In this document: positions 33,336 through 35,110 of the stretch, in pieces
How the letters are laid out: each line of letters starts with the position of its first letter
Position numbering within the stretch: the stretch's first letter is position 1
Source of the DNA: Halegenticoccus tardaugens
GTDB lineage: Archaea; Halobacteriota; Halobacteria; Halobacteriales; Haloferacaceae
Reading direction: 5' to 3'
DNA length: 64,000 nucleotides
NCBI RefSeq assembly: GCF_004116405.1
Contig: NZ_SDIC01000003.1
Span: forward strand, 248,001 to 312,000
Notes under the pieces: generated by a model
Seen by the model: the letters and a program-made list of their open reading frames with translations, nothing else
Database searches by the model: none
What the model was told of the DNA's origin: nothing
Position numbers and translations under genes: made by a program

Positions 33336-33509
33336 ACCGACCGTTCTCGATCCGCGGACAAAGGCCCGTCGCCTCCCGCACCGTCCGCCGACCCTCGGCG
33401 GCCTCGTCCGCTGGCGGCTCCAGCGCCGCGAAATCCAGCGGCTCCAAACGTCCGCGAACGTGTGAGTGGGGGCTCGTAGCCACCGATTACACTTTCTCCG
33501 CACGGGTAA

Positions 33510-33519
33510 CCTTTTATAC
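33510..33519 (+). promoter_or_regulatory. TATA box of the rpa3 operon
   Basis: CTTTTATACC (33511-33520) is a strong haloarchaeal TATA box. Its centre lies about 25 bp before the ATG at 33540, so transcription probably starts at that ATG rather than at rpa3. Confidence 0.65.
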
Positions 33520-33539
33520 CATCAGGCCCCAACCGACGC

Positions 33540-33584
33540 ATGCCTCTCGTAGAAAAACGAAGCGGAGGCAGTGAGACCACATGA
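33540..33584 (+). CDS. Upstream ORF of 14 codons overlapping the rpa3 start
   Basis: ATG 33540 opens MPLVEKRSGGSETT and stops at TGA 33582-33584, sharing ATGA with the rpa3 start at 33581. The ATG coincides with the transcription start expected from the TATA box, so this ORF would be read from a leaderless mRNA. A GGAGG (33564-33568) inside it lies 12 bases before the rpa3 ATG and can serve as its ribosome site. It looks like a translational coupling device; it may be only fortuitous. Confidence 0.5.
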   Translation: MPLVEKRSGGSETT

Positions 33585-34510
33585 CAGCGTTGCGAACCCA
33601 CGCAGAGGAGATTGCGGAACAGTTCTCGGACCACCTGAACGTCGACGCCGACGAGGTCGAAGAGCGGCTGGACAACCTCGTCAACGAGTACAAGGTCCCC
33701 GCCGAGGAGGCGCGCCGGAGCGTCGTCAACAGCTACCTCGACGAGGCCGGGCTGGAGCGAGACGCCATCCGGAGCGGTGGCGGCCAGGCCGCGAAGGTGA
33801 GCGACATCGACGAGGACGAACAGTGGGTCGACCTGACGGCGAAGGTCGTCGACCTCTGGGAGCCCCGGAGCGACTCCATCTCGCAGGTCGGTCTGCTCGG
33901 CGACGAGTCGGGCACCATCAAGTTCGTCTCGTTCAAGACCTCGGAACTCCCCGAACTGGACGAGGGGGCGGTGTACCGCCTCGAGAACGTCGTCACCGAC
34001 GAGTACCAGGGTCGGTACTCGGTGAAGCTCAACCGGACGACGACGATCACCGAACTCGACGAGGACATCGAGGTCGGCGACGACAGCGTCACCGTCGAGG
34101 GCGCGCTCGTCGACATCCAGAGCGGCAGCGGGTTGATCAAGCGCTGCCCCGAGGAGGGCTGTACGCGCGTCCTCCAGAACGGCCGGTGCTCCGAGCACGG
34201 CAGCGTCGAGGGCGAGTTCGACCTGCGGATCAAGGGCGTCCTCGACGACGGCACCGAGATCCAGGAGGTCATCTTCAACCGCGAGATGACGGAGGAACTG
34301 ACCGGCGTCACGCTGGAGGAGGCCAAACAGCGGGCGATGGACGCGCTCGACACCACGGTCGTCGCCGACGAGATGCGCGAGACCACCCTCGGTCGCTACT
34401 ACGGCGTCACCGGCCCGACCCTCGGGCGGTACGTCCTCGCGAACGAGTTCGAACAGCTGACCGGGCCGACGGACGCGGAGGACGTCCTCATCAAAGCGAG
34501 GTCGATGTAA
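33581..34510 (+). CDS. rpa3: Single-stranded DNA-binding replication protein A
   Basis: 309 residues, matching the haloarchaeal Rpa3 type. An N-terminal helical part (EEIAEQFSDHLNVDADEVEE) is followed by an OB fold (DEQWVDLTAKVVDLWEPRSD to YSVKLNRTTTITELDEDIEV), then a zinc finger at about 189-206 (CPEEGCTRVLQNGRCSEHGS) inside a second OB fold (EFDLRIKGVLDDGTEIQEVI). It binds single-stranded DNA in replication and repair. The partner gene rpap3 begins on the next base after the stop codon, so the two are translated as one operon. A 14-codon ORF precedes and overlaps the start. Confidence 0.92.
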   Translation: MTALRTHAEEIAEQFSDHLNVDADEVEERLDNLVNEYKVPAEEARRSVVNSYLDEAGLERDAIRSGGGQAAKVSDIDEDEQWVDLTAKVVDLWEPRSDSISQVGLLGDESGTIKFVSFKTSELPELDEGAVYRLENVVTDEYQGRYSVKLNRTTTITELDEDIEVGDDSVTVEGALVDIQSGSGLIKRCPEEGCTRVLQNGRCSEHGSVEGEFDLRIKGVLDDGTEIQEVIFNREMTEELTGVTLEEAKQRAMDALDTTVVADEMRETTLGRYYGVTGPTLGRYVLANEFEQLTGPTDAEDVLIKARSM

Positions 34511-35110
34511 ATGAGCCAGAGCAACGCGGTTCCCACCCGAGAGGTCGCCCGGCGCGTCTTCGCACAGGAGTTCAACGACGCCGGTTACACGTTCAAAGAG
34601 TCCGACGACGAGCGCGCGCCCGTCTACCTGCTCCTCCCGTCGGGGGAGCGGGCGAACCGGGTGTTCCTCGTCGGAACCCTCACCGAGAAGGAGGACGTCG
34701 GCGAGGACAGCGAGTACTGGCGCGGCCGGATCGTCGATCCGACGGGGACGTTCTTCGTCTACGCCGGCCAGTACCAGCCCGAGGCCGCGAGCGCCCTGCG
34801 GGACCTCGAACCCCCGGCCTACGTCGCCATCGTCGGCAAGCCGCGCACCTTCGAGACGGACGAGGGCGGGATCAACGTCTCCGTCCGACCCGAGTCGATC
34901 ACGACGGTCGACGCCGCGACGCGCGACCGCTGGGTCGTCGAAACCGCCCGTCGAACGCTCGAACGCGTCGAGGCGTTCGAGGACGAGGGCAACGAGTACG
35001 CGCGGATGGCCCGCGAGCAGTACGACCTCCCGGTCGACGAGTACAAGCGCGCGGCCGCCGCGGCGCTCGAAAGCCTCGAAGAGACGGACGAACTCGCGGC
35101 GAACGCCTGA
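34511..35110 (+). CDS. rpap3: RPA-associated protein RPAP3
   Basis: 199 residues, beginning on the base after the rpa3 stop. The COG3390-type pattern is present: VPTREVARRVFAQEFNDAGYTF and VYLLLPSGERANRVFLVGTL, then an OB-like core (RGRIVDPTGTFFVYAGQYQP) and AYVAIVGKPRTFETDEGGIN. RPAP proteins stabilise the cognate RPA and are needed for its function in vivo in haloarchaea; that is family knowledge. The C-terminal helix (YDLPVDEYKRAAAAALESL) may mediate pairing. No promoter is seen between the two genes. Confidence 0.92.
   Translation: MSQSNAVPTREVARRVFAQEFNDAGYTFKESDDERAPVYLLLPSGERANRVFLVGTLTEKEDVGEDSEYWRGRIVDPTGTFFVYAGQYQPEAASALRDLEPPAYVAIVGKPRTFETDEGGINVSVRPESITTVDAATRDRWVVETARRTLERVEAFEDEGNEYARMAREQYDLPVDEYKRAAAAALESLEETDELAANA

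Follow-up and report, generated by a model that had tools for sequence, protein, structure and literature searches.

A conserved hairpin at the predicted 5′ end of rpa3 mRNA in haloarchaea and some methanogens, a candidate RPA operator

INTRODUCTION

In phage T4, the single-stranded DNA-binding protein (SSB) gp32 acts on the structured leader of its own mRNA to repress it, and single-stranded DNA (ssDNA) is believed to draw the protein away (PMC535899). The leader of the archaeal replication protein A (RPA) gene rpa3 described in this work resembles that of gene 32 in T4 and RB69 in that an SSB gene is preceded by a structured 5′ leader element, with A-rich sequence and the site of ribosome entry close by (PMC535899), and in that supply of the protein would track the demand set by ssDNA. 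It is unlike T4, which has a pseudoknot, UUAAA/UAAA repeats and proven repression, in being a plain 6-bp hairpin (folded by pseudoknot-free programs) with an A-rich loop, found in cellular archaea and known from sequence.

In Halobacterium, the motif TTTCACTTTCA stands above UV-B-induced genes (radA1, top6B, vng280 and vng17) and also above radA of other species, and rfa3 is not named among the motif-bearing genes in the accessible text of that study (PMC2556686). The rpa3 locus likewise has a matching box 5′ of its TATA box; the Halobacterium motif is promoter DNA, whereas the hairpin is distinct from it and is transcribed. Overlapping gene pairs of Haloferax and E. coli were found to be coupled in 13 of 14 tested cases (PMC6728339), and the locus is like the ATGA pairs that use termination-reinitiation in having an ATGA overlap and a GGAGG within the upstream frame, and unlike them in that its upstream frame is not conserved. 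As with the structured leader RNAs collected in Rfam, we find a covarying, conserved 5′-leader hairpin that occurs about once per genome before one gene family, whereas no Rfam 15 family matches the RPA leaders searched. A literature search on RPA3 operons, HVO_0292 (rpa3 of H. volcanii), haloarchaeal leader structures, Methanosarcina RPA leaders and archaeal autogenous control, in which subscription journals were thinly covered, returned no description of this hairpin.

MATERIALS AND METHODS

The window is the whole analysed stretch of 64,000 nt from Halegenticoccus tardaugens (contig NZ_SDIC01000003.1). Its rpa3 leader and those of 80 named rpa3 loci (the best 80 of 114) make up the 81-leader set. 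For a larger set, 297 loci were collected, 17 were dropped and the 280 left gave 238 distinct leaders, many species being present in both databases. The loci dropped were L116 and L124, which are without the hairpin; L122, L177 and L187, which were cut or gave no match; L183, whose hairpin is present with a loop that starts with A, so that the pattern failed; and L130, L133, L143-L146, L150, L159, L163, L328 and L331, in which the RPA match was split. The search pattern for this set allowed no change at pairs 3 and 4, required five or more of the six pairs to form and accepted C or T first in the loop, and because the final 100 loci were drawn from the strongest matches of the order-wide model, the 238 leaders lean to perfect stems.

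RESULTS

The rpa3 locus and its promoter

The features of the locus are as follows.

33487..33497, + strand: TTACACTTTCT, identical at 9/11 positions to the haloarchaeal UV-response box TTTCACTTTCA known from the literature, 5′ of the TATA box
33512..33518, + strand: rpa3 promoter TATA box, TTTTATA
33540..33540, + strand: predicted transcript start, an A two bases 5′ of the stem, placed by TATA spacing
33540..33584, + strand: 14-codon ORF MPLVEKRSGGSETT, without conservation, from ATG 33540 to stop TGA 33582-33584
33542..33547, + strand: hairpin 5′ arm GCCTCT, pairing with 33564-33569
33548..33563, + strand: A-rich loop CGTAGAAAAACGAAGC
33564..33569, + strand: hairpin 3′ arm GGAGGC, which holds the GGAGG of the preliminary description
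33581..34510, + strand: rpa3, replication protein A, 309 aa, NF005553 'replication factor A'
34511..35110, + strand: 199-aa ORF immediately 3′ of rpa3, called rpap3 (RPA-associated protein) by position alone

The rpa3 product matched NF005553 with 494 bits (cut-off 353; E 1.4e-148), and the nearest named relative within the best 80 of 114 named loci was Halegenticoccus soli, with a 95% identical RPA3. The 199-aa ORF had no match in NCBIfam or Pfam, its name being taken from the Haloferax operon (PMC7776575). Calling rpa3 a core replication gene, as had been done in the preliminary description, is too strong, for Haloferax volcanii can do without RPA3, whose role there is in DNA repair (PMC7776575).

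In all 81 haloarchaeal leaders the hexamer most like TTTATA starts 29–31 bases 5′ of the stem (ties resolved towards 30), and an A/T-rich hexamer occupies the TATA region in 235 of 237 leaders. The second base before the stem is a purine in 80 of the 81 (A in 66, G in 14) and the third a pyrimidine in 73; for H. volcanii, Kramer et al. described a TATA box between −29 and −25, with position −1 occupied by a pyrimidine (PMC3986360). By this spacing and the purine/pyrimidine step, the rpa3 transcript is predicted to start two bases 5′ of the hairpin, and the start near 33540 proposed earlier thus agrees, as a prediction, with the TATA spacing in 81/81 leaders. A CCAA is also seen at 33529-33532 (stem−13 to stem−10), about 10 bases 5′ of the predicted start, and is near-invariant (C 75, C 71, A 77 and A 76 of 81 leaders); for H. 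volcanii promoters generally, only a WW motif is described at this place (PMC3986360).

Further upstream, base counts over the 81 leaders revealed a box of the TTTCACTTTCA kind at about stem−56 to stem−47, and on this sequence match rpa3 may join the list of UV-box genes; the rfa3 operon was mildly UV-induced, 1.5-fold at 70 J/m2 (PMC1224876). Because the box also stands above hairpin-free RPA genes (families f20 and f27; by eye), box and hairpin are separable.

The short upstream ORF is not conserved

The sequence features on which the preliminary description had built were all present, namely the TATA box, ATG 33540, the 14 codons, the ATGA overlap with rpa3 ATG 33581 and the GGAGG at 33564-33568. 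From them it had proposed a leaderless upstream ORF (uORF) controlling rpa3 translation, and the conservation check that it suggested for this ORF ran against it: the AUG is patchy and the frame variable. At the position of ATG 33540, the 81 leaders (the window included) have ATG in 37, ACG in 29, GTG in 9, GCG in 5 and TTG in 1, with ACG already in the nearest relative (L001, RPA3 95% identity); among the 238 distinct leaders ATG is present in 95 and missing in 143, and a tree of 237 RPA3 proteins requires a minimum of 29 changes of the AUG state. The frame from this position relative to rpa3 is 0, 1 or 2 in 14, 38 and 29 of the 81 leaders, respectively. A conserved peptide was rejected on the AUG counts (37/81 and 95/238). 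The predicted start site, and the idea that something unusual sits where rpa3 begins, therefore hold up, but a conserved leaderless uORF does not, since it is a hairpin that is kept there.

The ATG arises where a start-site A and a T precede the first G of the stem, the base between the start-site purine and the stem G being T in 47 and C in 34 of the 81 leaders; being a by-product of these three bases is the best explanation of the uORF. At the other end, 66 of the 81 rpa3 genes begin with ATGA.

It remains to weigh whether the leaderless frame at 33540 is translated and its ribosomes are passed to rpa3 by termination-reinitiation at the ATGA, which we regard as very unlikely. In the window the AUG does stand at the predicted 5′ end, coupling is frequent among the overlapping pairs mentioned above, and, with only ATG taken as the rpa3 start, the frame of 58 of 95 AUG leaders versus 52 of 143 others (Fisher p 0.0002) stops no more than 8 nt beyond the start of rpa3, and that of 10/95 versus 40/143 (p 0.001) runs far on out of frame. 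However, on the tree both biases pointed in the same direction without significance (median sign-test p 0.375 and 0.5), the many AUG changes and the variable frame weigh on the same side, and leaderless initiation is described as strictly AUG-dependent (PMC3986360), so that leaders with GTG or ACG would be unable to use the uORF, the nearest relative being among the 143 that have no AUG. In AUG-bearing species, judging by these frame positions, the uORF may still be locally used or translated.

A paired stem is kept in haloarchaeal leaders

The hairpin at 33542-33569 has 6 bp, of which the innermost is a U-G wobble in the window, and begins two bases past the predicted transcript start. Its stem ends 11 nt before the rpa3 ATG, a distance of 5–14 nt in the 238 leaders and of 8–12 nt in 227 of them. 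The inverted repeat is present in 81/81 leaders with 14–16 bases between the arms, including all 11 that Haloferax species supply (H. volcanii lies outside the set). Loops are 13–19 nt long in Halobacteriales and 11–20 nt in other families; 210 of the 238 contain GAAA, and the first loop base is C in 234 (the search pattern having required C or T).

In alignment A1, composed of 62 leaders (61 distinct), 100% of the cells at the six paired positions form standard pairs, while the slid controls were only 43–53% paired. Both sides had changed in 28 cells versus 9.8 in shuffles, with 0 of 500 shuffles reaching 28, these shuffles ignoring relatedness. The arms covary between GCCUCC/GGAGGC and GUCUCC/GGAGAC, with C-G, U-G or U-A as the inner pair and GCCUCU/AGAGGC among the other covarying states. 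On extension to distant families (A2, 69 leaders), 99.8% of cells were paired and three pairs had both-side changes, an AUCUCC/GGAGAU variant being found in small genomes of family f2. When pair changes were counted independently on the tree, pair 2 had four pairs on starred branches, of which 2.9 went the same way and 0 the other way (median p 0.25), the number of such independent pairs being too small for significance.

The six pairs had a median stability of −8.3 kcal/mol over the 81 leaders and a median stem pairing probability of 1.00. Compared with shuffles, the window leader plus 15 nt of coding sequence gave a folding z of −0.48 and the hairpin with short flanks one of −3.2; two hairpins from outside the order gave −0.5 and +0.5. 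Of these, only the window hairpin with short flanks folded better than its shuffles. In Rfam 15, searched at E 1 for the window region and at E 0.1 for eleven further RPA-leader loci, nothing matched the window, and the sole match at the other loci was the RNase P RNA beside L242. The comparison of leader sequences makes it near certain that the hairpin has been preserved as a base-paired structure where rpa3 mRNA is predicted to begin.

The haloarchaeal 3′ arm spells a ribosome-readable GGAGG or GGAGA. Masking of a Shine-Dalgarno (SD) sequence was rejected as the sole general function: the stem of L118, GTCTCT/AGAGAC, has no GGAGG, and in most leaders of families f18, f19, f25 and f31 an SD-like GAGG lies 3′ of the stem, with exceptions that include L228, L241, L244 and L247. 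SD motifs in 5′ leaders of Haloferax (H. volcanii) are unused (PMC3986360), so masking the GGAGG may lack a direct effect. It seems that the stem-loop itself, rather than the SD, is the selected object.

The hairpin occurs about once per genome in Halobacteriales

With covariance model R1, rpa3 of the window genome was found at E 3.3e-8 and the next match at E 8. Matches at E 1 were obtained in 283 of 293 Halobacteriales genomes, mostly once each, the training genomes being included and the E-values rough. Of the ten genomes that gave no match, three belong to genus g33 in family f12, two to f13 and two to f15, the others being G048, G133 and G176, each of these last three <80% complete; under laxer filters one f13 genome (G028) does match before rpa3. 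The hairpin is missing from the rpa3 leaders of f12 genus g33 (L116) and f15 (L124), two possible independent losses. Genome G069 had 11 R1 matches, i.e. the main one, nine before further rpa3 copies or start fragments, and a weak one (E 0.04). At three of its loci on different contigs (L201, L202 and L206), the rpa3 leader is doubled about 90 bases apart beside an N, probably through assembly joins.

On plasmids, 156 records matched RPA3; among the ten read, two keep the hairpin (L295, L296), three have it eroded or partial (L297, L298, L299) and five have none. In the Haloarcula plasmid leaders L297 and L298 the standard stem is lost, and CCGTCTC/GAGACGG could pair in a shifted register around an 11-nt loop (by eye). 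In the viral contig collection, 12 stretches matched a search pattern and none of these encodes an RPA3 relative. A methanogen-like hairpin, GCCTCT-CAATGAAAACAGTA-AGAGGC, was also seen in the haloarchaeal genome G105 (L214:1026-1067) before a 287-aa frame unlike RPA (E 0.04), possibly by chance.

Similar hairpins precede RPA genes in five families outside the order

When R1 was run over the phylum, only four matches, all weak, came from beyond the order; those in G440 and G411 lie directly before RPA genes and the other two elsewhere. When RPA leaders outside the order were read, chosen among the matches listed, 30 of 60 had a hairpin of 5–6 pairs, 24 being recognized by the automatic pattern and six by eye (L222, L230, L239, L243, L272 and L274). 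It is present in families f19 (16/16), f18 (4/4), f25 (4/4), f31 (4/4) and f33 (2/2), and was not found in f21 (0/16), f28 (0/5), f27 (0/3), f20 (0/2), f30 (0/2), f23 (0/1) and f35 (0/1). We take f19 to be Methanosarcinaceae, f25 Methanocellaceae and f33 Methanothrix; f21 is presumably Archaeoglobaceae, and f20, f27 and f35 presumably belong to Methanomicrobiales.

Alignment A3, of 67 leaders across the phylum (65 distinct), had 98.7% of its cells paired and both-side changes at four of the six pairs, with 50 both-side-change cells versus 16.8 in shuffles. It adds the arm states GCCUUU/AAAGGC and ACCUCU/AGAGGU; the exceptions are an outer A-C pair in 4/67 (L126, L230, L272 and L274) and a lost inner pair in 1/67 (L239). 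A second model, R2, had its best match before RPA in 35/35 genomes of f18, f19, f25, f31 and f33, of which only eight (G401, G420, G450, G469, G477, G481, G485 and G489) gave no training sequence, some of them with leaders near the training ones. In the f18 genome G419, the gene for archaeal RNase P RNA (Rfam RF00373; L242:1-289) is closely followed by that for RPA.

Seven side matches of R2 were read, about 30 further weak ones staying outside the count, and two of them look genuine. The first, L281:970-1675 (G455), is a BglII-type restriction endonuclease gene (PF09195, E 1.9e-42) whose leader carries the whole RPA-type set of box, TATA, GCCTCT..AGAGGC hairpin and TTGAGG. The second, L283:900-1755 (G399), encodes a NucS_N/HRDC protein behind box, TATA and a GTCTCC/GGAGAC hairpin; a homologue of this protein, L290, has the box and no clear hairpin (by eye). 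As these methanogen non-RPA genes carry box and hairpin, the element is not strictly autogenous. By eye, a frame beside the L281 endonuclease holds a DPPY methylase motif, and the N-terminus of the L283 protein resembles that of RPA. A genome-wide hairpin regulon was looked for and not found, the matches in G441, G508, G477, G415 and G449 being weak and not beside RPA (by eye); those at L211, L212 and L215 are likewise weak and away from RPA (by eye).

RNA hairpin, DNA operator or stability element

An inverted repeat just 3′ of a transcript start could also act as a double-stranded DNA operator bound by a repressor or damage regulator, the RNA form being irrelevant. A palindromic operator would be expected to covary as observed, since covariation preserves the symmetry of the repeat; the repeat accompanies the transcriptional UV box at L281 and L283, and with the commonest loop of 15 nt the arm centres are 21 bp apart, i.e. 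two helical turns. Yet loops of 11–20 nt put the arms on differing faces of the helix, so a fixed half-site spacing fails, and the sequence between the arms is an A-rich loop. It would be unusual for a transcription factor to have no more than about one site in each genome, and the UV box stays, by eye, in the hairpin-free RPA promoters of f20 and f27. Moreover, the one-sided states at pairs 2–6 in the 238 leaders, few as these events are, were all U-G (T-G in DNA; 8 leaders, at least five tree changes) and never C-A, the search pattern being tolerant of one C-A at pairs 2, 5 or 6. Six of these leaders have the U-G at pair 2 (four tree changes) and two at pair 6 (one change), and the sole A-C among the 238 is the outer pair of L126. 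The U-G-only states, the loop length of 11–20 nt and the A-rich loop favour RNA over DNA without proving it, and we consider the DNA operator quite unlikely.

An RNA hairpin that starts only some two bases into the predicted transcript might instead serve as a 5′-terminal stability element, for example a block to a 5′-to-3′ RNase, giving a long-lived rpa message without any regulation. This would suit rfa3 as the top-expressed RPA operon of Halobacterium (PMC5924565); but the loop sequence is conserved too, which simple blocking would not need, and a general stabilizer would be expected on many abundant mRNAs, whereas the match is near-unique in each genome. We rate it as unlikely.

DISCUSSION

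The reading that we prefer is that the hairpin is a 5′-terminal operator in RPA mRNA, most likely post-transcriptional and autogenous; on the comparative evidence this is plausible, if a little short of an even prospect. The hairpin and its unpaired, A-rich loop would be recognized by RPA or a partner, which when free of ssDNA would thereby block ribosome entry at the neighbouring start. Upon DNA damage, the exposed ssDNA would draw RPA off the mRNA and RPA synthesis would rise, the UV box upstream providing a second, separate, transcriptional layer. Action at the RNA level, recognition by RPA and relief by ssDNA are the parts that we infer.

About one dedicated site per genome before an SSB gene is what autogenous control would be expected to leave as its trace in the sequences. 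Confinement to the own message is close, with about one match per genome, yet two non-RPA methanogen genes carry the element. The affinity of an archaeal OB-fold SSB for RNA has been reported to equal that for ssDNA (PMC5346138). Since no other RPA operon of Halobacterium is expressed as highly as rfa3 (PMC5924565), any such repression would need to be partial.

More tentatively, and as a possibility that we still hold to be doubtful, the hairpin might be an ancient RPA-mRNA operator, older than the split between haloarchaea and the Methanosarcina/Methanocella-type methanogens, through which RPA would gauge free ssDNA and adjust how much RPA is made. Cells would then have an equivalent of the gp32 system of phage T4, placed under a transcriptional DNA-damage box.

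A 2004 paper on gp32 described it as not known whether specific mRNAs are regulated by cellular SSBs too (PMC535899). The hairpin offers a concrete candidate for such control, being deeply conserved, about 28 nt long and present in a genetically tractable group. Most haloarchaeal transcripts are leaderless (PMC3986360), and the hairpin, if the proposal is true, would be a conserved structured mRNA leader in organisms that mostly have none. It may also bear on radiation resistance, as the rfa3 operon is over-expressed in resistant Halobacterium mutants (PMC5924565).
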